A stretch of 64,000 nucleotides of DNA. Source: Amphibalanus amphitrite (Eukaryota > Arthropoda > Thecostraca > Balanomorpha > Balanidae). Positions within the stretch are counted from its first letter, which is position 1. Every line of letters starts with the position of its first letter. This document shows positions 2,161 through 63,660 of the stretch, piece after piece. Both the position numbers and the translations under genes were made by a program. Below the pieces are notes generated by a model. It saw only the letters and a program-made list of their open reading frames with translations. It made no database searches and was not told where the DNA came from. Where the stretch lies: assembly GCF_019059575.1 (NCBI RefSeq), contig NW_024881614.1:868001-932000 (forward strand), given 5' to 3'.

Positions 2161-5100
2161 GCGGCGCGATGGGCTCCAGCGACCACCGGCCACCGCCGAG
2201 CAGGTGCAGCTTCCAGTCGTGGTAGGAGGTCAGACTCTCACGGTGGCCCACGCTGAACAGCGTCATCTGTAGCCGCAGACACTCCTGGCGGATATAAGAT
2301 ACACGTGAGCCGTCTCACGCAGTGAATATTACGTCGCTAGGCTAATAGTTTCGTGAAACGGGCGAAGATACAGCAACGTGTCACTCAATACATGCCTTGC
2401 CAACGAAATAAGACGGTGCACTGAGCGTTGCTCAACGCTCCGATTACGCTAACGGTAAAATTCGTGTGAAAGTAAAAATCCGGCGGTGTTCTCAACGCCA
2501 TCTGGCCTAGGTAAAACATAGCACGATGCGCTTGGTTTGATGGATGCGACAAGCAAGACACACACAACGTCCGAAAGCGTTTTATCGTCACGCGAACAAC
2601 AGTTCAAAACGCTTAATTGTTTTGCGAGCTCGGCTGTCTCGTTCGAATCCTAGTCCCACTCAATCCTAGTCCAGATATCGACACAATATATCGGTATCAC
2701 TGAATAGTACTAACTCGGTATCGTACTTTCAGGCAAGATGACCTAATGAACCAGCAATGTCTTACCTGGTAGAGGATCTCCTCCATGTCGGGACTGACGG
2801 CGCTGGTGGCCTCGTCCATGAACACAAACGAGGGACGGTGGTGGAATAGACGCACGAAACAGAGCCGCTGCATCTCCCCCGGCGATAACAGGTCGTACCT
2901 GAAAGGTTACGGACGGCGCCGTCAGCCAAACGATAGGAGATGGTGATCGTTATGAATACCGGTGAGAGCTCTTGATCCCCCGAGTGTTTGGTGGCACATA
3001 TGGATAGCAAGTCGAACTTCACACTACTTTTATTTTCAACTGCAATCGCAAGAAGCTTTAAAAAGGCGCACTAGGATTTCCTATAAAATTGTCATCTAAT
3101 TTTCTGCCGCTATACGGCGAGAGCCAAGCACTCTTGCAGGCGAAAAACAACATTGGCCAGGCATTCCTTCCTTTTCTGTCGCGAGTGAGCGAGTGATGAG
3201 TGCAGAAGCGGCAGAAGCGCCCACCACTAACCAGTTTCTGGCGACGTCGGCATCCAGGCCGCCGCAGCGCTCGGCCAGACCGGTGAGCTGCGTCAGCTGC
3301 AGGTAGTGCAGCATCTGCTCCGACTCGGCCGCCGAGTAGCCGTCCTCCTTCAGACGCTCCGGGTACACAATCTGACAGATAAATAAGTAAGGTCATGAAA
3401 CAAAGGTACACATCCTGAAACAGGAGGACTTGGTGTACAGGACACAGGTATAGAAAGCATGCCAAAGGAGCACAGCACGATTGTTTCAAACGACCGACTC
3501 ACTTATCTGCACGCTGAAACTAAAAGGGCCAATCTTCTAGCTCGTTCCTCTGAATAAAATTTGCATAGTTACACAGCATATCGAAATCGGCATACATTAT
3601 CTACCATTCTCCCAAAGTCAGAGGGTTCCGATTCGATATGATATCGAGCGAACCGTCAGCCTACCTAAACACGGTTCAACACCACCATTACTTCATACCT
3701 GTTGCCGGAGCGAGCCGTCAGTGAAGAACGGTCTCTGCGGCATAAAGAACACATGCCGCGGTCCGGGCAGCACGGTGCGGCGCACACAGCCGGTCGCCGG
3801 CAGCCAGAGGCCGCGCAGCACGCGCAGCAGGCTGGTCTTGCCGCTGCTGCTGCTGCCGGTCACTAGCAGACTGCGGCCGCGGCGGACCGTGAGGCTGAGG
3901 TCGGACACCAGTGCCTGGCGGCCGCCGGGCGCGCGTACCGTCACCGAGTGCAGACGGTACGGAGTGTCGAACCGCGCGCTGGTCGGGTCCGCGTCAGCGC
4001 TGCCGGGGAGGGAGGGAATGGAGCTACCGTCAGAGCCAGAGTAGACGCAGTGATGGTAGACACGATTAGTGCAGTCAAAGCATAAACGATGATTGAAAAA
4101 CATATTTGAAGGGTAGGGCATCATCAAAAATCGCCTTAGCATCTACCGAAAGGCACAACATAAATTGGAACGTTTTCATTGCAAACGATTTTAAATATAA
4201 AACAGACAATCCCCGACACTCACCTCTCATCACCATCCTCTGTCTTCTTTTCATCACCAGTTGTCATCACCTCCTCCTCCTTCAACTTCTCCCCAACCTT
4301 CTCTCCCTCCCGCTCTCCTTCCTTCCCGGGCGGCGGCGGCGGCTTCCCGTCACCACCGGCCGGCTCCGGGGACGGAGTGCGGCTCTCCCGTCTCCTCTGC
4401 AGTGTGTCCAGACGCTCCATGAGCTGACCGATACGGTGTGTGACGCCCACCACCTCTGTGGCGCTCGAGGATAGGTCCACCAGCTGGGTGAAGTTGTAGA
4501 TGAGGTACATACAGACGAACGAGTTCTGGAACCGGGGAGGGACAGCGTCAGTCGGAGACGGAAGCTGGCGATCGAGGTTGACGAGTTAATGACGAGAAGC
4601 ATTCTTGAGCTGAGCTCAGTCATGATCAAGCTTTGAGCCTGAAATCGATGCGTGCTTATCACTGAAGGAATTAACATTTGATAATATCGCATACCCACAT
4701 CGGATTGATGTCCACTTTACGACATAAAACGACTCATTGTGACAAGGCCTGCACCCCCAACCCAATATACTAGCCAGTACGGTCGACTATCCCTATCCCA
4801 CTCTCGGGCAGACATACCTGGCTAATAATAGCGCTCAGCTGCTGCGGCGTCTTGTCGTCATACATCCCAGCAAATATCGGGATGGCAATGACCAGATAGT
4901 TGAGGATGCTGCCCAGGTAGTCGAACAGATTAACAACCAGCGTCAGCATGAAGCGCCGGTTGAACAGCGCCAGCTGGGTGGCGACGAGCGCCCCGAGTCG
5001 CCGGTTACAGCGGTGCTCCTCCACCACGCTGCAGCCATGAAAGCCCAGCGCCTCTGCGTGCACGCGGATCTGCATGTGCTTGAACCTGACGGAGAAAGGT

Positions 5101-11840: not shown

Positions 11841-12935
11841 CAGTCGGTGACACACCAGGGAAATAAGCTAAAATTAGAGTGCTCTATTTATTGCTCCCGC
11901 TACTTCACCGTCTCCCATAGGGTCCTGTGTTGAGCTGGTGTCGAGGCTCTAAAAATGACGCCGATTTTTGCACCCTTCTCACGAAAATCGCTCGGACCGC
12001 CTGGAAACCAATTGTTCCGCTCTAAAAATTTCATGATCGACGGGAAAATGAATGAGGAAAAGATTGGTCCTGAAATAATTCTGAACTCCCTGTAGAACAT
12101 ATCGAAATATGGCTGCAAACTAGGAGCATGTCAAAATCGACAAAACAATACAAATAAACTTACCGGGATTTTTTTATTTTCCATGCATCTGTGTATGAAA
12201 TGAGTCGGTTTTTCGGAAAGATCATCTTCTGTTTAATTAATAATTCCACAATTGCAATCGAGAAAAAAAAAAACATTTCCGCTGTGACAGCAGTTTTGGC
12301 ATTGTGCCAGTAGTGTGGCGTTCGCGGTGCTGCGTGGTCGTCGGGACGGAGTTGTGAGTATTTTCGGTGTTTTAAATGGTTGATGGCCATTTGAACCAGC
12401 TTCATATTATTTCCTACACATTTTTGCATCAAATTATTGCTTTGAAAGACCATTGAAACCCCTTATCTCTTCATGAAACACGATCATATTCATCGTCGAC
12501 GAAAATGGCGCGGGACTCCATGTGCATTCCGATCGAAATAAAGGACATGCCTAAGAGCTGGACTTTTTGCACGCGTTCCCCGCCAGGGGGCGCCACTGAG
12601 GAAGCACCCTATGACGTCACGATAAAACTGCGCGCACTGTGCGCACGGTTCTGTAAGCAAGTAATATAGTGGTGGTTTCATGGTGGAGATTGGAATAAGT
12701 ATTTTGACGCTGTAAAATTTCAAGCCGTTTTTTGAAATTAATTAGTAAATGCATTTCAAAAGTATTTATTTAAAGTGTGAAAGGAGAATAATTAGAAGAA
12801 CATGCATATTTTTGTTCCAATAGCTTATTATGTGAGACCTGATCGGTACTAACGGGTACTTCTAAGAAATAGTGAAGAAGTACCAAACAGCCTGCTCGGC
12901 TACGATCGTCAGCTGTCCTTTGGAGCTGGACTTCA

Positions 12936-15560
12936 GCATATTTACGTCTGGACAACGAGTTGCGGGGAAAAGTGCTGATTGTGTTGCAGTTTTAGGAGCC
13001 GGTGATTAGGCTGGATTTTTGGGTTACTTTTTCGTTCCGATTCATGTATTTCATAGTGTTTGGCTTTTGAATATTTTAGTTCTTTCAGATAAATATTACT
13101 CGCCTTACAACTTTTGTAAAAACGTTTCATTTTTTATAAGCCGACGTTCAGAGTCCTAAAAATACACCAGCACTACAATCATTGTAAACCTTGTTGTAAA
13201 CAAACAAATGGAGCACACAACCTGGCTCTGTTCCAAGGCCAGTTTTTGTACGTCGTTTTGTTGGATGTTTTGAATCCCTTGAGATTGACTTATATCATAT
13301 TTAAGAAGCATGTTGACTGAAAACAATCTGAAGTATCCAGGAGGCTGACAGAGGTCCTGACTACTGAGCAATATCAATATCAAGTTGAACAAGTTGTGAA
13401 ATTTTGGTTGATAAACGCAAGTTGATCGGGCTCATATATAAGCAAGAAAAAGTAAAATTAAAAGAGCTTATTGTCCAAAAACAAGCTATAATATTGCAGA
13501 CCTTGGAGCAATACTGAAGAGCACGCTGAGCAGGATCATGCCAGAAAATGTTGACTGATGAGCGCATATTGATGTATTGGTATGAATAATGAATGGTAAC
13601 TTACAGCAGCAAGATAAATTAGTGCTAACTATCAAGTTAAAATCTAGAATGAATGGACTTGGGCAGTTTTACTATGCTTACTATATTTAGATGCTATGCA
13701 GATTGTAATGTGCATCGGTACTCAGTGTCTGGCAAATGAAACATGCAATCATTCCATTGCTACTGGAGGAGAAAGCTTGGATCACTAAATCCACTTTATG
13801 TTGATTTTGATGTTAATCATCATCACTGTATTTCTTTAAAAAAGGATTGTAGTAAAATTGTCAATGTGACAATACATGCAATGATGTGATCATATTATGT
13901 GTTCATAGTCATTCGTAATAGTCATTATTGGTCCAATATACAATGGCAAAGCTCTCAGTCTCAGCGTTTCTTCCTGTGGATGGCCAGCAATGACTCAGAG
14001 CTTAGAAGTATTAGGTTTCTTCACAGGGCTGGAATAAAAAGTACTGAGGGTAATCTTCTTCCACCAAGGAACTCTACTTTGACATGGTATGAGATGTAGG
14101 CACAAGTAGGTAGGTGCTCAGTTCCTATAGTCAGTAGTTGACAGTTGTGTATGTTTAGTCGGGTTAGCTTAGATCAGATTGTTAGTTTTTTAATTTGCCA
14201 AATGTCCATAAAAATGTGACCTGAGCAATGAGCATACCTGAACCTGACTAACCCGACGGCTGACCTAACCTCAATCATCACACATATTTGCATCCTACCC
14301 AAGACCTGCATGGCAGTAGCACCCAGTTATAGGTAGGTACTCACCCTAACTCAATCTTACCTGCTAACCTTCAACTTGCCAAAAGTTAGCTCACATTGCC
14401 AAGCTGTGCCCAGGGAAACAGTCAACTGAGGAACTGGCTCATTGGGTGGCTGGTGTGAGTCTGTGCATTTAAAGTGTTTCTTCTCTGAAGCTGCTCTGCA
14501 CTGCTGTATGCCATGTTAGATGCTCAGAAAATGTGGGAAATGATTACTAAGCTACTTAAGTGCTTTGTTAATGCTCGAGACATGAACAAGTACAGATCCT
14601 GCAGGGTACAGCTATGAGTTAGGTGCTAGGTGAGTAGAGTATGTTATGTGAATGTGCTGTTCCCTGTTTGACCGTAAGTATACAAACAAGCACAGGGTCA
14701 CAGTTATATTCAATCTCCACATAAACATACAACAAAAACGGCCATATAGCCTAACTCCGAACACACCACAGATAACTTAATTGCCTTTGAAGGCACAAAA
14801 TGTTTTGATTAACAGGACAGGTTTACAATATATCCTCTGTCCTAGGGGGATCTTGCTGCCAAGTTGAGGTATGATGACTGAACTTCAGGATTGATCAACC
14901 TTTTCTTAGCCACTGCTTATATACGAGAAAGACCAAATGCTTGTTTGTTTTGATTTACAGGACATGTATACAATATATCCTTTGTCCTTGGGGGATCTTG
15001 CTGCCAAGTTGAGGTACGATGAATGAACTTCAGGATTGATCAACCTTTTCTTAGCCACTGCTTATAAACGAGAAAGACCAAATGCTTGTTTGTAAACTGC
15101 GTTGAAAATTTAATGATCCACCTTCAATTCTGACATGAAGGCACAAATGAAATAGTTCCCTCTCCTTTTGGAATACACAAAGCAAAATATTTGATAAATT
15201 TTAGTGGATGGACAAGAGCAATTCAAATTAGCATAGCTTTCCCTCAAGTTCACTTCTGGCACTGTTGATGAATTACAACTGACGCTTATTCGCTTCATAT
15301 TTTGTAACAAACGCGCTAAAACTGCAATATAACAGCACTATATCCTTCTTGACAAAATGTATTAAAAATTTAGCCCTGATGGCATTCGTTCTTGGTGAAA
15401 ACGTAATTACAAAATATTTTGTAGTAACTATTAAATTCCGGCCGAAAACAGTGCACGGTTTAAAAAAGAATCATTCCAATGACGGTCCATTCTTGCGGTC
15501 CTGAAATCGCCACTATTTCCGGCCTCTCCAACGCAACTCGTTGTCCAGACGTAAATATGC
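12936..15560. mobile_element. 2.6-kb TIR element with 9-bp target duplication
   Basis: Perfect 29-bp terminal inverted repeats (12936-12964 and 15532-15560) start GCATATTTACGTCTGGACAA. TGGACTTCA is present immediately outside both ends (12927-12935 and 15561-15569), a 9-bp duplication as in Mutator-like elements; an 8-bp reading is possible if the ends differ by one base. The interior is AT-rich with only broken short frames. A lysine/glutamate/leucine-rich stretch on the plus strand near 13420-13510 may be a decayed coiled coil. It is non-autonomous or degraded, and inserted in the 6.8-kb element. Confidence 0.85.
14801..15093. repeat. 146-bp tandem duplication
   Basis: Two copies in direct order, 14801-14946 and 14947-15093, differ at only a few positions. 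Shared text includes GGGGGATCTTGCTGCCAAGT and GAACTTCAGGATTGATCAAC. It lies inside the 2.6-kb TIR element, so the duplication probably occurred in that element. Confidence 0.9.
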
Positions 15561-16032
15561 TGGACTTCAACGCTGTAAAAAAAATGTGTGCTGAATTAAT
15601 TTTTAGTTTCACCAAAATATGAGCATTTTATCATTTCCTTTTCACTTTTGTAATTATTGTTGAGTGAAGAGACATGTTGCTGGTTCTGACAATATAAATT
15701 ATTAATTAAAAAAACCGAAATGCGACGGTAAGTATCTGCTACTAAATTATCACTTTAACCAAATACATGGAGAATCTTTCTACCATTGCTTATAAAACGT
15801 GCTTATCAATGCACAAATGTTTTATTTCAGACAAAAAGGATTTATTTGCCTGAAGTCTTGCGTCATGTGCTACTGCTTTGATTCCAAAGACGCTCTCCGG
15901 GTCGGGGTAATTTAACTTTCTTCATCGATCGATAAGAGATTTTGATTCCATTGATATCCAAATTGATAAGCTCGGCAGTCGGCACCATGGAGTAAGGGCG
16001 TCCCCACAGGGGTGACGCAGGAAATATGAATG

Positions 16033-16094
16033 GCGTTTACACCGACAGTAGTTTCCCACAGCCGGCAATGGGAATCTCCTGTCGGTGTAAACGC
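16033..16094. repeat. hairpin, 16-bp perfect arms
   Basis: GCGTTTACACCGACAG (16033-16048) is matched by its inverse at 16079-16094. The 30-base middle contains a second inverted pair, TTCCCA/TGGGAA. No terminator or RNA family is recognised. It sits within the 6.8-kb element. Confidence 0.7.
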
Positions 16095-16604
16095 TACTAT
16101 AGTCCCATCCAACTCAAACACTGGGGAATATCCCCGCACTTTTGAGGACGGAAATCTATGGACCAGTGGATAAAATGCGGCGAGCTTTCAGTTTTATGGT
16201 TGGGTCTCCCTTCCGAGGCACATATTTACGTTACGGTCCAAACTCCATAGACAAGCGGACATACGGTTTTACAAGAGTTAGGCGACGAAATGCTCAGCTT
16301 AATGATTAAGTAATGGGCACCATTAGGTAGGCCATACAATTTTCTGTAGTACCGCATAGTCGCTGCAGTCAAAGGTGTTCTGGTTTTTATGCTATATGCC
16401 AAAGAATTTTTGCGTGTAATCACCGGTGACACGACATATTTCTGCTTTATTGGGTTGGGCGGTGAAGTCGATGACGTGATCACAATGAAAATGGCTTAGT
16501 TTTGTAGAACATTGAATTCTGATTCCGGCACGACTCTCGCTAGTCCATTTTTTATTATAAATAAACCATTAATTGCGGTACAAAGTCAAAACTAGCCCGA
16601 AACG

Positions 16605-17148
16605 GCGCCCGCAGCGGCCGTTAGCACAGCGGCCTTATGGTAAACAGGTTAGTTCACATTCCCGCCGCTATGCGAGTGGCGGCGGCGCCACCTGTCCTCA
16701 TGTCCGCCTTGGACCGTAACGACGGGGGATATTGGGTCATATTCCCCCGGCGTCCTGATGATCGGCGCCCAGCTCAACGTCGAAGGCGCCCTGATACACG
16801 GCACTGCTATCTGTGAAGGTGCCCAGGTTGCTGCCGCTCGAATTTTGGTCGCCTACTTAACAAAACCTCCGTTGGTGCCATCTCAGTTTCCTCGAGGTCA
16901 GGCAACCTTCACACGCCGTTGGCTACCTTGGCTGGCCGGCGACTCGTTCCCCTCGTGGCGACGCTCTTGACATCCAGTCAAAAGTTGGAGTGGCTGGCGC
17001 CCCCAGTGGGGGCCGGGGAAGGGGCAGTGGGCCTCCACGTTGCTCTCTTCCCGAGCCCATGGTGACTTGGCTCAACTCTCCTCAATAGAATCTGGATTCT
17101 GCACGCTGTATGAACATGGGCGTATTGTATTGTATTGTATTGTATTGA
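16605..17148 (+). mobile_element. tRNA-headed SINE with (TATTG)n tail
   Basis: The head has a polymerase III A-box TAGCACAGCGG (16622-16632) and a B-box-like GTTCACATTCC (16652-16662) at tRNA-like spacing. About 450 bp of non-coding body follows. The 3' end is a run of TATTG pentamers (about 17122-17148), the usual SINE/LINE tail arrangement. The size, about 540 bp, is long for a SINE, so it may carry a conserved central domain or be fused to another repeat. No clear flanking duplication was found. Confidence 0.65.
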
Positions 17149-17270
17149 ACAATCATGAGCGATCCACATTCTGAAAGTGCGTGGCGATTACTGCTCAGAC
17201 ACCACTACGGACAATACGGACAGTGGGTGTGACAATCAGTAGTGCCATTCATATAGAGGGTGTCATATAT

Positions 17271-17811
17271 GAGCGGAGAGGCAACAGCACAGCTGAGCGG
17301 AGAGACAACATTAACACAACAGTACAGCTGGTGTTGCATGGAGCTGCAGGCAACCAGACAGCGGAGGTTGCGAAAAATAAACAATTCGTCACTTCAACGT
17401 ATAAACAATAGTAAAAGCAACATAAACACATATTCTCATGGTCGAACCCATGCACTAGCGGCTCACGGCGGGCACAGGCACGCAGTGCGGTAGCGGTACC
17501 GGATCACACGTCATGGGCGTTGTCTCAGCATAGGTTGTTATGAGCGGAGAGGCAACAGCACAGCTGAGCGGAGAGACAACATTAAAACAACAGTACAGCT
17601 GGCGTTGCATGGAGCTGCAGGCAACCGGACAGCGGAGGCTTGCGAAAAATAAATAATTCGTCACTTCAACGTATAAACAATAGTAAAAGCAACATAAACA
17701 CATATTCTCATGGTCGAACCCATGCACTAGCGGCTCACGGCGGGCACAGGCACGCAGTGCGGTAGCGGTACCGGATCACACGTCATGGGCGTTGTCTCAG
17801 CATAGGTTGTT
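17271..17811. repeat. 271-bp direct tandem duplication
   Basis: Two near-identical units, 17271-17541 and 17542-17811, each begin GAGCGGAGAGGCAACAGCAC and end near CAGCATAGGTTGTT. Few mismatches suggest a fairly recent duplication. It directly follows (on the minus strand) the terminal PHD exon and so would fall in that gene's 3' UTR. The minus strand has a B-box-like GGGTTCGACC in each copy, but no matching A-box was found. Confidence 0.9.
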
Positions 17812-17828
17812 CGCAATCTAGTTGAAGC

Positions 17829-18669
17829 CTAAGAAGACGGCCAGTGGGGTCTCACTGCTGCTGAGGCGACCTCGGAGACGATGCGTCGCTCCTCCTGTCG
17901 GCGACCTGCGGTGAGCAGGACTCCAGATAGCTGTCTGGCACGTTGCCGACACTGCCAGACGCTGTCAGCAGGCCTCACTGCTGCAAGTGATGTGCAGATG
18001 GACGCCAGGTGACTTCGTCTGCAGGCGATTCCGGAGACCGCGGCCTCACCAGGCAGCACCACCTGCATCGCCATGTCGGTGTTTCTAGAAATGGAAAAAT
18101 AACAGTATCGGTGAAGGACAAGCAATACAATGTATTCTGTTTTCCTCTCTTGCAGGTATACGTAATCTACAATTATCATTGTTCCTATTTCATTCAACTG
18201 AACCTGAAAATTCCATATTGGCACATTGTTTGACTAAATTTGTGTAGTTGGGAACAGGGGCGACACCACGGTGCGACGACTGGAGGGGACATTGACCATT
18301 TTGGAGGGGACGAGGACTATTTCAAGTCGATTCTTTCCATGCAACGCCATAGGCGTAATGTTAAAATTTTAAAAAGTGGAGGGGACGAGATCCCCTCCGT
18401 CCCCCCCCCCCTGTGGTGACGCCCTTGGTTGGGAAGCAGATTCTGATTGTTTGAAATACATGTTTGGCTGAACAGTGCGGAAAATATTTCATTGATCACT
18501 ATAGCTGCAACAAAAATACTGAGACAGAAAACATTTGCGCTTACCTGGCTCCTTAGTCAGTCCCGCACAACGGAAGTGGTACCATTTATCGCAGCCGTCG
18601 CATCCGACCATCGGTGCTGCACTGATGCTGCTGCACTCCCCACATTCCCAGTACCTTGGAGCATCTTGG
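17829..18669 (-). CDS. PHD-finger protein, two 3' exons (partial)
   Basis: Two exons with matching phase. Exon 18545-18669 has acceptor TTTTCACAG and donor GTAAGC. Exon 17829-17980 has acceptor CACTTGCAG and ends in TAG. The spliced frame gives CGEC, then APMVGCDGCDKWYHFRC, then a WQCRQR segment, the C4HC3 layout of a PHD finger. The PMVGCDxCDxWYH text is closest to the TAF3-type PHD that binds histone H3K4me3. Seven of eight zinc ligands are present; the last expected Cys (CxxC after the conserved Trp) is Arg. A basic tail of about 40 residues follows. Upstream exons were not found. The exons lie inside the 6.8-kb transposon interval, with a hAT-like MITE in their intron, so this may be a captured or decaying gene fragment. 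Confidence 0.6.
18255..18427. mobile_element. hAT-like MITE, 173 bp
   Basis: Ends read CAGGGGCGACACCAC and, inverted, CAAGGGCGTCACCAC. GTTGGGAA is repeated exactly on both sides (18247-18254 and 18428-18435), the 8-bp target duplication typical of hAT elements. It has no coding capacity and is inserted in the intron between the two PHD exons. Confidence 0.85.
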
Positions 18670-20136
18670 CTGTGAAAAGATTACATGAGTCATGGCGCAT
18701 ACATGAATAGTAAGATGTTTTATAAGTTTAACATCGCATAGCAAAGACACAACAGCTGGGAGTCAAATGTAAGCCAAAGTGTAAGCCCTGCCATGTTTTG
18801 TAGACTGGATTTTAAGCAAGAAAAGCTTTGCTAAAAATGATGCTTGACGAAGCCTCATCCTGCTGGGCTGTCTGACATGTCTCCCTGTGAAAAGCATGTG
18901 GCCCTTATATTGTATATATGATGAATATGTTAATAATACAGAGAAAACACAGTATAAAATAAATTATACCCAACGTTTCATCTTAATCGACTTTGCCAAG
19001 GGTGTTTGAACAGCTTGAGATGAGTGAAGTGTAAGGGTACCTAGGTACATCTGAAAATAAACTGAATCTGCGTTCAATAAACATTGATTTTGATAATACA
19101 TTTCACAAATCAACTGCTAATAACAATCATACCTACTAAAATAGCACGACAGATAACTAACAATCGCATGAAGAACTTCTTGATTCGCCTTGACTATTGT
19201 CGTCCGAACGAATGTTGTCTAAAGTTACACATTTGTCTTTTCTGCGCAGCATTTGTGTTTGCCATTTACCGCACCAATGTTCGCCAGCGATGGTGACTTT
19301 TCCTTACCTGCTCACGAAACGTCACACACGACATGACGTCACCCGAAGACGTCATCAAAAAGTCCAGCTCTTAGGCGTGTCCGAAATAAATCGTAAATTA
19401 AATAATATTCGATGATAAGTATCATATTCTAGTGACACATTTTCATAAAATAAGGCATAAACTTTGCAAGGAAGTCAACATTGGATAATTGGATTCTTAT
19501 TTTGCTCACATATCCTTGTAGTAGTCAAATGGCTCAATTGTTAGATAGATGTAAGTATATGTTTTGGCTTGATGTTTGCTGTGAAACCACCCAGCCACTT
19601 GCAGGTTGAGTGATTTTCTGATAATTACCTGATAATCATTTCTCCTTTTCCTTAAAAGAAACTAAAATTCCTTTCAAAGTAATCCATTTTAAGGAATGGC
19701 GGCTTGCTCATTGGCATTTCATGTTCTTGTTTTGTTATTGCTGGCAGTATTTTGATACAATAATGCAATATGAATTTTTTGCAATAATAAAACCTAAGAC
19801 AAACTCAGTTAATGCGTCAATCAAACACCCAACAGAAAGATTGTGAGTCCTTGTAATGTGAAGCATAATATTCTATGAATGTGTTATATAGAATATGCCA
19901 AATATTAAATTAATTATTATTTGATACTGATAGCTGAGCAGGTGAATTATGCCACAATATAATTTCATTTTCTGGTTTTGAAATAGCCGGCAGTATTTTA
20001 CTTCAACAAATGTAATATACATGGAATACATGTTGTTATGTTACCTATGTTAAAAGTTTAATAACAGCCAACAGAAGGAGCTGTTTCAGCAGATAATGTT
20101 TGTACCTTATGCATTACCTTTCTTTTCTGCAGGGCC

Positions 20137-20286
20137 ATGCTTCCGCTGGGTGGTCGACATTTGCCTCCTGAAGAAGTTGAGCAACATGAAGACCACCAGA
20201 TGAGGTGTCTGCAGTTCATGTGGAACTCTGCAGACTACAAGTGTTATGCCAACCACAACCAAAGTGCTGTGATCATGGAGGCATGA
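20137..20286 (+). CDS. possible terminal exon, unknown protein
   Basis: A strong acceptor (TTTCTTTTCTGCAG, ending 20132) is followed by a 50-codon open frame starting ATG at 20137 and ending TGA. About 470 bp further on is AATAAA (20759-20764). The peptide contains PPEEVEQHEDHQMRCLQFMW; no family was recognised. No upstream exon was located. It may be the last exon of a non-coding or transposon transcript. Confidence 0.25.
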   Translation: MLPLGGRHLPPEEVEQHEDHQMRCLQFMWNSADYKCYANHNQSAVIMEA

Positions 20287-22182
20287 ACCTCATGACAACA
20301 CTTCAGATTTGCAGTTGAACCAAAGTGTGATTCAAACCACCTGTGGCATCTCACTCAATGTGTGAACAGTGTGATTATTGTGCAGTGTTCAGCTGCAACT
20401 AAGACATTTTTTAGTGACTTGTTTGCAATTAGCCACCAAAAGCATTTTTGGGCTGGCTGCTGTAATTTGTTGTGCACACTGCACTGCACAATAGTGGTAG
20501 TGTTTTGTCACTTGTCAAGTTGTCAGTTGTGCATGTTGCATGTTTCTCTTCCCTCGGCCCTCATTATCAGTTAAGTGGTGAATTGGCATCACTCAGTCTC
20601 CCCAGATCTCCATTAGGCATTAACTGTCTGTCAACCACCTAACTTGAGATGGTATTTGCTAATAGTGTCAGAAAAGAAGTGATTGTAGACATTTTTAGGA
20701 ATATGAGCTCCGTTTCATGCGTGTTCCAGTGGTCATTTTGTCACATGTCCCATAGTGTAATAAATGGAAACTGTTGTTCCCTTTTGAAGGTACTCGCGGA
20801 TGCAGAAAGCGTTGGGCCTAATTATTAAACGCACCCTCCTATCAGCGACGCACGAAATCGACAAATATCATCCTTTTTAGAACAGGAGGAAACGAAAACT
20901 TGTGAACATAGCTGTACCTACAACAGTGCATAAGGAATTGAAATTCTGGGAGTTTTTGAAATTCGGAGAAACTCAAGTTGTCGACAGGTATGCCCCCGCC
21001 CCCCTTGCACGTCAAAGACCGCCTAAAAAACAAACGCCTACAAATGAAGGCATTATTCGTATGTTCGTTGTAATTGCAGCAGCCTGGCAACATGTATTGC
21101 GGTCCGATGGCGAATTACACTCGTGCTCAAAAACTGCCGGTAACTGCCAATGCACTTAGGTCATAGGTGAGGAGAGGAAGGGTTATGTCATATATCAACA
21201 TCATAGAAATGGCTTCATCTGAGCTGTGCCTATTGTACATAATTCAACCAATATGTGCATTTCGTTTCTTGCAATCTACTCATGCTTTCACTCCAGCTTC
21301 AGAGTAATCATCCCATATGGTACGTCTTAAGATATTGATTTCTATGGCGGTTTGCAATTACTAGCCACGTCTCACCTCAGTTTGGTGGCCCCGCATCGGC
21401 CCACTCGGCCGCTCTAAAATTGACTTACGGAGGAGGATGGTGGCTTTTATTTTAGCTTCTCCGCCGACTGCGGGGAGCGCCGTCGCCGAGGTAGGAGCAA
21501 TAATTAGCTTATGTTTGGGACTTATTTCCACGCTTAATTAACATTTTAATGTTATTTTAATTAATTCATGTTAATCTTTGACGCATTCTCTTTCTATTGA
21601 TACCATCCACCGGTCTGAGAATTACTGCCTTGCTGCGTAAGGGCCGATAAAAGATCACGCTTTTAGGGGTATCTCTTCAACATGGGGCAGGAGCAATAAA
21701 TAGAGCGCTCTAATTTTAGCTTATTTCCCTGGTATGTCACCAACTGAGAGGGAAAATTTGCAATCACTGTTTTGTCACAACAGCGCCATAAATGGAACAC
21801 AAAATTATTCTGTTCAATCAAGTTGTTCTTTGGCGTTCGTAAGCCAAAAATACGTGAATGTCTCATTTCGATTTGCTATCTAGCAGGAAACTCCTAATAC
21901 TCACTGCTGATAAGAATAAGGAATACTACTGGATTTATTTGTCTTCTTTTTGGTGCCCCAAATAATGCAAGTAGATGAAGAAGATGTCGAATGTCGATGT
22001 AGTTTGTTGTTTCATTTTGGAATATTCACCAGCGCACTTGTGAGTGAATGGTTTCTGCACTTGAATATCAAGACATTTTGTGACTTACTGGAGTTTAATT
22101 TTAGTTTATGGCTGTCATCAGTTTCAGTTTCTTAGTCTTCATGATGTTGCATCCACGGCAGCATGTCCAAGCGCATTTTGCC

Positions 22183-59187: not shown

Positions 59188-62016
59188 TCACTGCCTTGGT
59201 CTCAGTTCGTAGACTCGGTGCGCCCAGAACTTGTCAAGTCGATTCTTGAAGGCGTTGACGCTTGGGGCAGATACAACGTCCGCTGGGAGTCCATTCCAGG
59301 CCGAGATGACGCGCGAACAGAAGGAGACTTGACGCAGCTGGGTGTTGACTCTGGGCTGTCTCAGTTTCAGACCGTGGTTCCTCGTTCTCTGGGACGGTTC
59401 TCGTTCCAGCAGGTCACCAGCTGTCACCTTCAGGCGTCCCGTCAACATCAGATACACTGTGATGACATCACCCCTCAGCCTCCTGTAGTACATGCTGGGG
59501 AGCTTCAGTTCCCTGAGCCTGTCCTGGTACTCGAGATGCCGCACGGAGTGGACGAACCTTGTCGCTCTCCTCTGCACCCTCTCCACGGCGTCTTGATCAC
59601 CTCTGGACGTCGGTCCCCAGACTGAGTTGGCGTATTCTAGATGGGGCCTCACCATGGTCTTGAAGAGGATGGGCAGTGTAGTCTTGTCCAGTGACAGGAA
59701 TGTGCGCTTGATGAGTCCAAGAATCCTGTTGGCGCGTCCCACTGCTGCTGCTGTCTGCTCATGGAACTTGAGGGTATCATCAACGAGCACCCCGAGGTCC
59801 TTCTCCTTCTTGACAACGGTCAGCTCAGTCTCGGCCATCCGGTACTCGAAACCAGGGTTTGTGCTCCCCAAGTGCATGACTTTGCACTTACTCCTATTAA
59901 AGGGGAGCTGCCACACAGCTGACCAAGCCTCCAGTGCTGATATGTCGTCCTGGAGAAGACCTCTGTCAATGTCACTGGACACCCTCCTGTACACCTTGGC
60001 GTCATCTGCGAACAGCTTGACGGTGCTGCTGATGGCGTCCGGTAGGTCGTTGATAAATAACAGGAATAAGACAGGTCCCAGGACAGACCCCTGCGGGATC
60101 CCGCTGATGACATCAGTCCACTCTGAGAAGTGTCCCTCAACAGCAACACGCTGTCTCCTGTTACCGAGAAAGGCCTGAAACCAGTGTAACAAGGGCCCGT
60201 CAACTCCGCAAGCCTTCAGCTTCAGCAGGAGCCTCCTGTGCGGCACGCTGTCGAAGGCTTTGCGAAAATCAAGATAAATGACATCCACAGCACTGCGCTC
60301 GTCAACAGTTCTCAGCCAGTCTTCAATTACCACCAGCAGCTGCAGTGCACAGGATCGTCCAGGTAGAAACCCAAACTGGTGCTCAGACAGTACGTTCTCC
60401 GTTATCAGGTGATCCAGCAGAGCGTCCCTTACAAAAGACTCCAGCACCTTGCAGCAGATGGAGGTCAAGCTCACTGGGCGGTAGTTTCCAGGCAGACTCC
60501 GGTCACCAGCCTTAAAGATGGGCGCGATATTTGCAGCTCTCCAATCCGCCGGGAGCTCTGCGGAGTCCAGCGATTTCTGGAAGATTGTCTTCAGGAGGTG
60601 GCTTAGTGGGCTCGCCAGTTCCTTCAAGATCCGTGGGTGGAGCTCGTCTGGTCCTGGGGACTTGTTTATGTTCAGTGCCTCTAGTCTCTTCTTCACTTCT
60701 CGTGCAGATATCTCAACCTCAGTTAGTCTGGTACCGTTGAACCTGGAAGTAGCCTGTGGAGTATGTTGATCTTCAACAGTAAACACACCACTGAAGAAGT
60801 GACTGAGTGTCTCTGCCTTCTCTCTACCGCTGTGGGCTCTTGAGTTGTCCTCTCTCTTCAACTCTTCTACTCTCGCCTTCGTCTTGAGTTTAGACCTGAC
60901 GTACTTCCAAAAGCATTTAGGGTTCCTTGTGACATTCTTCGCCAGGTTGTTCTCATGTTGTCTTCTAAGTTTTCTTGACAGCTTCCTTAAGTCATTCTTT
61001 GCCCGTTTGAAATCCGCCAACGATCTTCCATCTCCAGAGCGGCGGTAGAGTCCATACAGATGGTCCTTCTTCCTCTTGGCTCGTATCAGCTTGTTGTTAC
61101 TGTATGGTTGTCGCTTGTTCCTTACAGTCTTCATTGGTATGTACCTTGCTTCGAGACACTTTATCAATTCCTTTAGACAGTTCCAACCCTCTTCAACTCC
61201 TAGGTTCTGCACCCTGTGACTTATATCTGATGTTTCAATATCATGGGCCATGCTTTCAAAATCCGCATTTCTCATATCCTTCACAAGAGCACGCTTCGAA
61301 CATACATCAGCATAACATCTTATCTTGAAAATCAAGCAGTCATGGTGGCTGTTTCCAATAGGTGGCCGGTGGTTCAGGTCCTGTATCATGCTCTCTTCTG
61401 ACGTCAAGACCAGGTCCAAGAGACTTGGTGTTCGGTTGGGCATGAAGTGGGTTGGTGAACACACATGTTGACTCAAGAAGCAGTGCTGGATGGTTTGGAT
61501 GAACTTGTGCGTGTAGTGCTGGTCTCCTGCAGTTGACATTCCCAGACTCCAGTCAATTTCTCTGTAGTTCAAATCGCCAACTAGTACAAGGTGACTTGGC
61601 TGACTGTCACACACCTCCTCCAACAGGGTACACAGGGCCTCTGTGGATCTATGGGCCGCCCCCCTGGGGCTCCTGTACACAGCACCGAGCACTAACATGT
61701 CGCTGTTCCTCAACTTAGGCTTAACAAACACAGCTTCTTGAAAGAGACTGCCAAACTTGACCTCTGCTGGCCTTAGCTCACACCGTACCATGATTCCGAC
61801 ACCTCTTATGCTTAGCAGTCCCAAATTCTCTAGTTCCGGATCAAAGTTGAGATATGTTGTGTAGTCTTCTCCAACTGAAAAGAATGACAGTGACAGTGGT
61901 TTTCGTTGCGCTTTAGGTACACACTCAGTGAGGACCACTATATCCGGCTTATCATCTTCAATTCTCACCAACAGTTCATCCATCTTGTTTGGGAGCCCAT
62001 CAATGTTAGTGTACAT
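59188..62016 (-). CDS. LINE ORF2: AP endonuclease and reverse transcriptase
   Basis: 942 codons from the first ATG; the frame is open 24 codons further upstream. The APE-type endonuclease starts YTNIDGLPNKMDELL, with catalytic-type segments VVLTE, YRSPRG, GDLNYREIDW and IGNSHHDCLIF. The reverse transcriptase begins near KSPGPDELHPRILKEL, with GNYRPVSLTSI, EHQFGFLPGRS, YLDFRKAFDSVPH, GIPQGSVLGPVLFLLFINDL and the catalytic LFADD (60001-60012). The C-terminal region ends ISAWNGLPADVVSAPSVNAF and FKNRLDKFW, the usual CR1/Jockey tail. All key Asp residues are present. No RNase H. Confidence 0.95.
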   Translation of the reverse strand: MYTNIDGLPNKMDELLVRIEDDKPDIVVLTECVPKAQRKPLSLSFFSVGEDYTTYLNFDPELENLGLLSIRGVGIMVRCELRPAEVKFGSLFQEAVFVKPKLRNSDMLVLGAVYRSPRGAAHRSTEALCTLLEEVCDSQPSHLVLVGDLNYREIDWSLGMSTAGDQHYTHKFIQTIQHCFLSQHVCSPTHFMPNRTPSLLDLVLTSEESMIQDLNHRPPIGNSHHDCLIFKIRCYADVCSKRALVKDMRNADFESMAHDIETSDISHRVQNLGVEEGWNCLKELIKCLEARYIPMKTVRNKRQPYSNNKLIRAKRKKDHLYGLYRRSGDGRSLADFKRAKNDLRKLSRKLRRQHENNLAKNVTRNPKCFWKYVRSKLKTKARVEELKREDNSRAHSGREKAETLSHFFSGVFTVEDQHTPQATSRFNGTRLTEVEISAREVKKRLEALNINKSPGPDELHPRILKELASPLSHLLKTIFQKSLDSAELPADWRAANIAPIFKAGDRSLPGNYRPVSLTSICCKVLESFVRDALLDHLITENVLSEHQFGFLPGRSCALQLLVVIEDWLRTVDERSAVDVIYLDFRKAFDSVPHRRLLLKLKACGVDGPLLHWFQAFLGNRRQRVAVEGHFSEWTDVISGIPQGSVLGPVLFLLFINDLPDAISSTVKLFADDAKVYRRVSSDIDRGLLQDDISALEAWSAVWQLPFNRSKCKVMHLGSTNPGFEYRMAETELTVVKKEKDLGVLVDDTLKFHEQTAAAVGRANRILGLIKRTFLSLDKTTLPILFKTMVRPHLEYANSVWGPTSRGDQDAVERVQRRATRFVHSVRHLEYQDRLRELKLPSMYYRRLRGDVITVYLMLTGRLKVTAGDLLEREPSQRTRNHGLKLRQPRVNTQLRQVSFCSRVISAWNGLPADVVSAPSVNAFKNRLDKFWAHRVYELRPRQ

Positions 62017-62262
62017 AACTTTTAAAACCTTAGGTACCTCAGCATGCAACACGTCACCCAGGTTTGTGCCATTTACACACTACACATTCTGCATAGGTGC
62101 TGTGAAATTGCTGTCATGCAGCATGGGACAGGTCACATTCACATTATCACTCCAGCATGCAGTTTGTAAAAGCGATTTGCAGGCAGCATGGGCAAGCTGG
62201 GCCCCATCCACACCTTCCATGCGAAGACATCCTAGCAATATGTCTTTTACTCTCTCATTTAG

Positions 62263-63534
62263 TCAGACTGTACTCCCGTGATCAGCTCGATCACTCTGTC
62301 CTGCCTCAGGGTTTGGCTGCAGAATAACGACCCTTCCTCTCTGTATACGGACAGTTTTTCCTTCCTCTCGGAGCCTCTTCGCCTCAAGTCGCAGCTTGCG
62401 GTCCTTCTCCCTCTCCTCAGGGGTCCTGTCTGGAGAGAGGAACACCCCTCGGTACCTCTCACTGTCTCGCAGCTGTGGAGCCATCCTCAGTATGTCCCAC
62501 TTTGTCCCTTCTTCGACCAGTGAAACTATCAGTGGTCGTGGTCGATCCTGCTGCCTTTTCCCTGCCCTGAAGACCTGCTTGATGTTGGTTGAGATGTGCA
62601 GCTCTTCCCGGATCATATTCTTAAATGCCTCAATGTCCTTCTCAGTTCTTCTTTTTGGGTCCTCGTCCACACTCTCTGGAAGGTTATGCACCACAATATT
62701 TTGCTTCCGCCTTTCCTTGTCAAAGAAGTCACCAACAGATTTGACCAGAGTCTCGCCTGATCCAGACTCTGCAGTAGTTCTCACTTCTCTTGCTGATATG
62801 GCCTCTATCTTGGCTCCCAGTGACTTGATTGCCTCTGCATAGGTTCTCCTCTGCTCTTGTTCTGTAGAAACAACTACTTCAGCTTGATCTTCCTGGCACT
62901 TGATCTTTTCCTCAATGCGGAGCACAGTGTCTGATACTTGCTTTGTCTGCTCCTCACAAGACAGGTGGCATGCTTTGATCACGCTTGCCTGTTCTTCAAA
63001 CTGCGTCTTGAGATCATTATACATTTCTTCCTGCACTCTACATAGGTCCCTGCTGCTACTTGCTACACCCGCAACTGCTCGTGCCTGGTCCACCAGCAGC
63101 TCCTTGAACTCGGTCAGGGATCTCCCAACCTGCTCTGAGAGGTCCAGTCCTGCCCGTGTAACAAGGGATGGGATGAGCGCCTGGCAGAATGAACAGACCC
63201 AAAATATCTTGAACCTGCGGAGAGCATCAAACTCCTCGGCTGACTGAAGCTGACACATCATGTGGTACCACCTGTTGCAGACATCACAACATATGCATGT
63301 GTCCTCCTTAATCTCCTTATTGCAAGCCTTCCCTGAACTACCACGGCAAATATATTCATCCTCCTCCTCCCCCATCTGTCCATCTCTACCTCCCTGATCA
63401 CTTCTGGCTCCATCTCCACCTTGTTTACTTCCACGCAACATGAAGGTTACCTTCTTTGACGAACCTGGCGCAGTCTTGGAAGGGGCCAGTTTGAGTTTAC
63501 CTGGCACTTTATCTCCCGCTTTTGCTTCAGGCAT
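62263..63534 (-). CDS. LINE ORF1: PHD-finger, coiled-coil RNA-binding protein
   Basis: 423 codons from the ATG at 63534. After a basic N-terminus comes a PHD-like zinc finger (YICRGSSGKAC, CICCDVCNRWYHMMC, WVCSFC; all eight ligands present). A long coiled coil follows, then an RRM-like domain beginning QNIVVHNLPES and ending RGRVVILQPN, as in CR1 ORF1 proteins. It probably packages the LINE RNA. The PHD finger differs in text from the spliced one at 18.5 kb. Confidence 0.9.
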   Translation of the reverse strand: MPEAKAGDKVPGKLKLAPSKTAPGSSKKVTFMLRGSKQGGDGARSDQGGRDGQMGEEEDEYICRGSSGKACNKEIKEDTCICCDVCNRWYHMMCQLQSAEEFDALRRFKIFWVCSFCQALIPSLVTRAGLDLSEQVGRSLTEFKELLVDQARAVAGVASSSRDLCRVQEEMYNDLKTQFEEQASVIKACHLSCEEQTKQVSDTVLRIEEKIKCQEDQAEVVVSTEQEQRRTYAEAIKSLGAKIEAISAREVRTTAESGSGETLVKSVGDFFDKERRKQNIVVHNLPESVDEDPKRRTEKDIEAFKNMIREELHISTNIKQVFRAGKRQQDRPRPLIVSLVEEGTKWDILRMAPQLRDSERYRGVFLSPDRTPEEREKDRKLRLEAKRLREEGKTVRIQRGRVVILQPNPEAGQSDRADHGSTV

Positions 63535-63660
63535 GAATATCCAATGCTCTGTTACTTTCCAAAACAAACAACAGCAAAAATCTTGCAGATTATGCACAAA
63601 TCACCCAAGTTTGGAGAACCAGAGGGAGGACAACCGATCGGCAAGGAAGCGGGAACCTAA

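Follow-up and report, generated by a model that had tools for sequence, protein, structure and literature searches.

A 64,000-nucleotide stretch of the genome of the barnacle Amphibalanus amphitrite (RefSeq assembly GCF_019059575.1, contig NW_024881614.1, positions 868,001 to 932,000, forward strand; hereafter the window) contains, at 12543-19382, a transposon with terminal inverted repeats (TIRs) that is one copy of a family carrying two exons of a PHD finger. Our preferred explanation, to which we give a probability of roughly 0.6, is that this is a non-autonomous, Pack-type family with Merlin-like ends that is moved in trans and carries a captured PHD fragment as a passenger. The same spliced PHD fragment is present in 39 copies, the family has moved recently, and Merlin-type transposase genes are found in the genome; it is therefore possible to test directly, in an animal, how a fragment of a chromatin reader is captured, spreads, and decays.

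Boundaries and empty sites of the window element

The TIRs of the window element are 27 nucleotides (nt) each with one mismatch (T/C at position 6), and they are flanked by a perfect 8-bp target site duplication (TSD), GAAATAAA. A 21-nt stretch of the TIR, searched with up to three mismatches, matched at only two places in the window, which are the two ends of the element, and two or more matches were obtained in 0 of 100 shuffles. The flanks joined without the element gave 296 candidate places elsewhere in the genome, and in all 40 that were scored the match is uninterrupted, covers 599-600 of the 600 bases, and has 98-100% identity. Three of these empty sites were read (L067 to L069), with one GAAATAAA in each; identity of L067 to the two flanks is 100% (2,352 bases) and 99.86% (702 bases). 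A first-pass annotation, made from the letters of the window alone, had proposed a 6.8-kb unit bounded by these repeats and this duplication; sequence, shuffles, and empty sites together confirm a genuine TIR transposon with those boundaries, but 6.8 kb does not stand as the length of the family, whose core measures ~3.6-3.7 kb.

The near-identical, uninterrupted sites with a single GAAATAAA indicate that insertion of the window copy was very recent and that its target was a copy of a different repeat, which spans 11841-21746 as the outer unit. This outer repeat, which has CAGTYGGTGACAYACCAGGG ends, is probably a very young burst, since every one of the candidate places scored was so nearly identical.

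A recently mobile family

In the whole assembly (807.55 Mb, 2,644 contigs), a 21-mer TIR pattern found 297 exact ends (146 forward and 151 reverse), against 0 for the reversed pattern used as a control; near-identical contig pairs suggest that the assembly holds both haplotypes, so counts given here are not haploid copy numbers. Among the first 100 places, which reach contig C234, we recognized by reading 45 adjacent opposed pairs and 10 single ends. Thirty-eight of the 45 pairs (L014 to L051) and the window copy, 39 copies in all, were read whole, and fractions out of 39 below refer to this set. The 21-base TIR matched nothing on viral contigs. A 16-base TIR had five matches there; of these, L001 and L002 were read, and both appear to be chance similarities within related coding sequence. 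Two places have a TIR variant in which position 17 is not T, and each lies close to a PHD match of the family (C34 and C1257).

In every copy read whole, GGACAT stands at one end and GGACAC at the other, and the TSD is perfect, with 8 bp in 25 copies and 9 bp in 14; none lacks the TIR-bounded structure. The TSDs reveal a target preference: their first base is T in 0/39 and their last base is A in 1/39, and those of the 8-bp class have A/T-rich middles. Lengths range from 3,360 to 6,840 bp. The window copy (6.84 kb) is longer than the core of ~3.7 kb because of two extra inserts, a nested TIR element of 2,625 bp and an insert of ~490 bp.

Differences among copies are small (mean pairwise difference, 2.1%; mean difference from the majority sequence, 1.1%; substitution counts leave out indels and inserts). 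L015, L034, and L044 differ by 0 substitutions over ~3,455 aligned bases and occupy three sites whose TSDs differ; several further pairs of copies are 1-4 bases apart. Judged from this identity, the family moved very recently. All three identical copies carry Tyr in place of the last zinc ligand of the PHD finger; recent movement therefore needed no intact PHD in the moving copy.

PHD exons and their presence in the family

Spliced together, exons A and B on the minus strand of the window copy encode a C4HC3 PHD that matches PF00628 with 32.1 bits (Pfam cutoff, 24), compared with 20.8 bits for the unspliced frame, which bears out the earlier report of PHD exons inside the element. All eight zinc ligands are present in this copy, and among solved structures the TAF3 PHD is nearest in sequence (E = 1.6e-8). 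Both exons occur in 39/39 copies, and 37 copies have intact splice signals (both acceptors and the donor); in the other two, L019 and L050, the extension was out of register.

Less complete readings gave a similar picture. Both PHD exons were seen in the partly read pairs on C33 and C165 (L052 and L053), of which that on C33 is unlikely to be a single clean element, its core seeming to stop within L052. The pairs at C3, C8, C30, and C62 have a PHD exon match between their ends. Nine of the 10 single TIR ends have an inward PHD match (that at C72 is 11 kb off); the tenth, on C204, consists of only 289 bp of left end, with no PHD in the 3.6 kb read. A second listing covered 46 right ends preceded by C on all contigs, 28 of them beyond C234, and 26 of these 28 have an inward PHD match on the same strand within 9 kb. 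At the remaining two of the 28, stretches of 1.3 kb were read: on C946, exon A has a deletion and exon B begins within the stretch, and on C1155 exon A is frameshifted and exon B lies beyond the stretch. A genome search for PHD fingers, in which 150 of 410 candidates were scored, returned mostly copies of the transposon; matches with unusual open frames proved to be further copies (L061 to L064) or distant PHD genes (L065 and L066).

Probable decay of the PHD fragment

The last zinc ligand is Cys in 11 copies, Tyr in 23, and Arg in 5. In a residue table on reference columns, where insertions such as those in L049 and L050 are not visible, all eight ligands are present in 10 copies and the last Cys is lost in 28, two of which have also lost another ligand; L018 lacks another ligand through a gap. 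Among the 10 eight-ligand copies, a stop accompanies an internal deletion in L023 and L024 and lies in the tail in L025, L033, and L035. Just upstream of the domain, 1 bp of the family majority is missing from the window copy, and five copies have a TACC insertion at the same spot; L075 has lost part of exon A and retains its TIR end. Neither the window copy nor the majority sequence yielded an upstream exon that has an ATG and a good donor and is in phase. A candidate "exon 0" that lies just internal to the right TIR (ATG ... GCAG|GTAAGG) ends in a strong donor, but its phase does not fit the PHD frame.

Over the 77 codons of domain and tail, the distinct variants comprise 15 synonymous changes in 50.3 sites and 36 nonsynonymous changes in 180.7 sites, a ratio of nonsynonymous to synonymous variants per site (pN/pS) of 0.67, with no significant constraint (Fisher p = 0.18). 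Variants per site number 0.31 in exon A, 0.26 in the intron, 0.11 in exon B, and 0.14 in the stretch downstream of exon B. Taken together, the lost ligand, the broken frames, and the variability of exon A point to a PHD that is not working.

Merlin-like ends and the transposase

The Merlin superfamily (Feschotte 2004, as outlined in passages of PMC8101967) is marked by GG termini, TIRs of 24-462 bp, and TSDs of 8 or 9 bp; the element shares its termini (GGACAY...), its TIR length of 27 bp, and the mixture of TSD sizes. Unlike Merlin elements, the window copy has no DDE_Tnp_IS1595 transposase (no PF12762 match in six frames), and PHD exons and nested repeats are found instead. Indeed, no transposase family, that of Mutator-like elements (MULEs) included, was detected at E <= 0.05 when all six frames of the window copy were searched. 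The hAT superfamily is known for TSDs of 8 bp only, whose second base is T and whose seventh is A; here 14/39 TSDs are 9 bp long, and of the 25 with 8 bp, 6 have T as the second base and 8 have A as the seventh. Mutator elements and MULEs have mostly long TIRs and TSDs of ~9 bp, compared with TIRs of 27 bp and TSDs of 8 or 9 bp in the element. The first-pass annotation had found no superfamily that it could name with confidence from the start of the TIR, and the GG ends and 8- or 9-bp TSDs narrow this to Merlin-like; the likeness is supported, with membership unproven because the window copy lacks a recognizable transposase.

DDE_Tnp_IS1595 (Merlin) has 21 matches in the genome, 11 of them in stop-free frames of 296-401 amino acids. 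The match at C8:2022790 lies ~2.8 kb outside a copy of the family, with no shared ends found. As a separate observation, transposase loci in two pairs (L054/L074 and L058/L073; L056/L071 and L057/L072) hold intact Merlin-type open reading frames (ORFs) without convincing TIRs. The paired loci look allelic, and some of these TIR-less ORFs may be transposon-derived host genes.

Source of the PHD fragment

The intron is retained in the element; capture, if there was any, therefore took place at the DNA level. A TAF3 gene was considered as the source and set aside: the TAF3-like PHD exon of the genome (C62:347789 and C737:312120) is 74% identical to the query, compared with 48% or less for the transposon copies. 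Protein-database searches for relatives of the PHD gave no candidates, in a database whose animal content was not established. A Pfam search of the 10-kb flanks of the element (both flanks on the minus strand, the right one on the plus strand too) found no PHD gene, so that no longer host gene of which the exons might be a part was recognized there; the matches in these flanks were to ABC-transporter, OPA3, and nucleoside-transporter families. It is possible that the source gene has been lost, has strongly diverged, belongs to another species, or is among the PHD candidates that were not scored.

Weighing the explanations

According to our preferred explanation, a core of ~3.7 kb would have acquired a two-exon fragment of a host PHD-finger gene, as DNA with its intron, ahead of the expansion of the family. 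The GGACAYGCCTAAGAGCTGGAC ends would be recognized by a transposase from another locus, most likely of the Merlin/IS1595 type, which would insert the element through 8- or 9-bp staggered cuts, and the PHD exons would be transported as passengers. Several results weigh against this account. No source gene was found among the 150 of the 410 PHD candidates that were scored, a set filled by transposon copies, so that the gene could have been missed; one codon-degenerate pattern, CDxCD[K/E/Q]WYH (K/E/Q codon ending in AG), had no match in the genome, nor did an intron junction free of the miniature inverted-repeat transposable element (MITE) that lies in the PHD intron, at up to three mismatches. 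No transposase is linked to the family: 3 of the 21 Merlin matches (C8, C59, and C221) are on contigs in the TIR listing, which is uninformative for the other 18, and none of the three is inside a listed pair. Seven transposase loci that were read (L054 to L060) have neither a TIR pair of the family nor a convincing TIR or TSD of their own, and wider stretches of four of them (L071 to L074) contained no convincing TIR. As for decay, the first seven zinc ligands are retained in 36/39 copies, exon B is less variable than the intron, and pN/pS is below 1, all of which might reflect weak or past constraint on the PHD; a cysteine adjacent to the lost ligand might also substitute for it.

The first-pass annotation had left two possibilities for the PHD exons, a protein encoded by the element or a captured host fragment, and the captured fragment fits better because moved copies carry the cysteine loss and frame damage. 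The PHD exons could nevertheless be the remnant of a gene that belonged to an autonomous ancestor of the element and encoded a PHD-bearing transposase or second protein, in which case the family would be an internally deleted derivative. Their presence in all copies read whole, with no source gene found, would suit such an origin, and an autonomous copy is possible, the TIR places listed being the first 100 and the long copies at C3, C8, C30, and C62 being read in part. PHD fingers are known in transposon proteins, and in excerpts of PMC2836005 the DNA transposon Ginger1-9_HM likewise has one; there it lies within the transposase, whereas in the barnacle element no transposase was found in the window copy. 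When five Merlin ORFs of the genome were compared by tblastn with the core, the window copy, and six large copies, the best E value was 0.02 (L053), and the Merlin ORFs read have no PHD by inspection. With these results and the six-frame search against it, a remnant of this kind is unlikely, though it deserves to be kept in mind. The ends themselves might belong to another superfamily with 8- to 9-bp duplications, such as MULEs with short TIRs. The sizes of the duplications overlap, the nested element in the window copy likewise makes 9-bp duplications, and the Merlin label comes without proof from a transposase, but TIRs of 27 bp, GG termini, and a mix of 8- and 9-bp TSDs fit the published description of Merlin closely, and we regard a MULE-type assignment as improbable.

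A working PHD protein from some copies, which might, for example, steer insertion toward or away from histone-marked chromatin and be used in trans by the broken copies, would account for the intact splice signals and for the 10/39 copies with eight ligands. The TGACGTCA palindrome, which we take to resemble a cAMP response element (CRE), is present at both ends of 39/39 copies and would also fit. Yet no start exon in phase with a good donor was found, half of the eight-ligand copies bear the stops described above, a ligand is lost in copies that moved recently, and exon A is as variable as the intron, so a working protein seems very unlikely. A still more specific version has a few copies making a small reader of the H3 tail that acts in trans on the family, as its own targeting or anti-silencing factor alongside a borrowed transposase; we think it slightly less probable again.

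Comparison with known systems

In plants, the capture of genes by TIR transposons is well documented. The main text of PMC8903248 describes Pack-type elements for plants and mentions neither Merlin nor animals. Like the plant Pack-TYPE elements treated there (Pack-MULE and Pack-CACTA), the barnacle element is bounded by TIRs, has no transposase, carries coding cargo, and has multiplied, the combination of non-autonomous, TIR-bounded structure and gene fragment that characterizes Pack-TYPE elements; unlike them, it resides in an animal genome, has Merlin-like ends, and has a source gene that was not found. In animals, such capture was called unknown by a 2008 paper that itself reports a case from Caenorhabditis elegans (PMC2572040). 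This case, Turmoil-1, is likewise an animal transposon with coding fragments, one of them an RNA recognition motif. Its fragments lie in the inverted terminal repeats and their source genes are named, whereas the fragment of the barnacle element is internal. Helitrons are known to capture genes in animals (PMC4778049), and gene capture is also a topic of a 2026 survey of arthropod MULEs (PMC13359780). In a limited literature search, we recognized no description of a Merlin-type element carrying a PHD fragment.

Internal features and surroundings

The features of the window copy are listed in Table 1.

TABLE 1 Features of the window copy and the repeat around it (window coordinates)
Feature	Position	Strand	Remark
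Outer repeat hosting the window copy, TIR-like ends CAGTYGGTGACAYACCAGGG, AGAG flanks	11841-21746		Context, not part of the element
TSD, left copy, GAAATAAA	12535-12542		Single copy at three empty sites read
Left TIR, T-end, GGACATGCCTAAGAGCTGGACTTTTTG	12543-12569	+	Same polarity in 39 copies read
TGACGTCA palindrome near left end	12612-12619		In left 150 bp of 39/39 copies
Nested 2,625-bp TIR element, ends GCATATTTACGTCTGGACAACGAGTTGCG	12936-15560		Outside family core; in 3/39 copies (window, L034, L036)
Insert of ~490 bp, ends TTACGGTCC / GGACCGTAA	16231-16721		Ends read by eye
272-bp tandem duplication	17268-17811		Within core; unit number appears to differ among copies
PHD exon B	17975-18084	-	Completes domain, short tail, TGA at 17977-17975; profile match and splice reading
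Intron between PHD exons (GTAAGC ... TTCTAG)	18085-18544	-	Splicing raises PF00628 score
173-bp hAT-like MITE in PHD intron, ends CARGGGCGWCACCAC	18255-18427		TSD GTTGGGAA at 18247-18254 and 18428-18435
PHD exon A	18545-18669	-	Six of eight zinc ligands; donor GTAAGC
TGACGTCA palindrome near right end	19334-19341		In right 150 bp of 39/39 copies
Right TIR, C-end, GGACACGCCTAAGAGCTGGACTTTTTG on minus strand	19356-19382	-	Polarity as in 39 copies read
TSD, right copy, GAAATAAA	19383-19390		Single copy at three empty sites read

The nested 2,625-bp element is flanked by a 9-bp TSD, TGGACTTCA, at 12927-12935 and 15561-15569. L034 has this element at the exact same nucleotide and in the same orientation as the window copy; the two inserts are only ~91-94% alike, and the core of L034 has 0 substitutions relative to the insert-free copies L015 and L044. 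Apparently, these are two independent insertions at one site. In L036 the element is at a different position and reversed. Across the ~490-bp insert, 0 of the 38 other copies align (gap at 3689-4179 in element coordinates). The MITE in the PHD intron is present in 39/39 copies, full in 38 and shortened in L027, and because of this distribution it probably was already in the founder and predates expansion of the family.

A perfect TGACGTCA palindrome occurs elsewhere within the element in only 2/39 copies, and the terminal ones are possible promoter elements or accessory sites for the transposase. No RNA families or tRNAs were found in the window. Farther along, at 59188-63600 on the minus strand, there is an element resembling a long interspersed nuclear element, in which inspection suggests both a long endonuclease/reverse transcriptase-like ORF and an upstream ORF with a different PHD-like motif.

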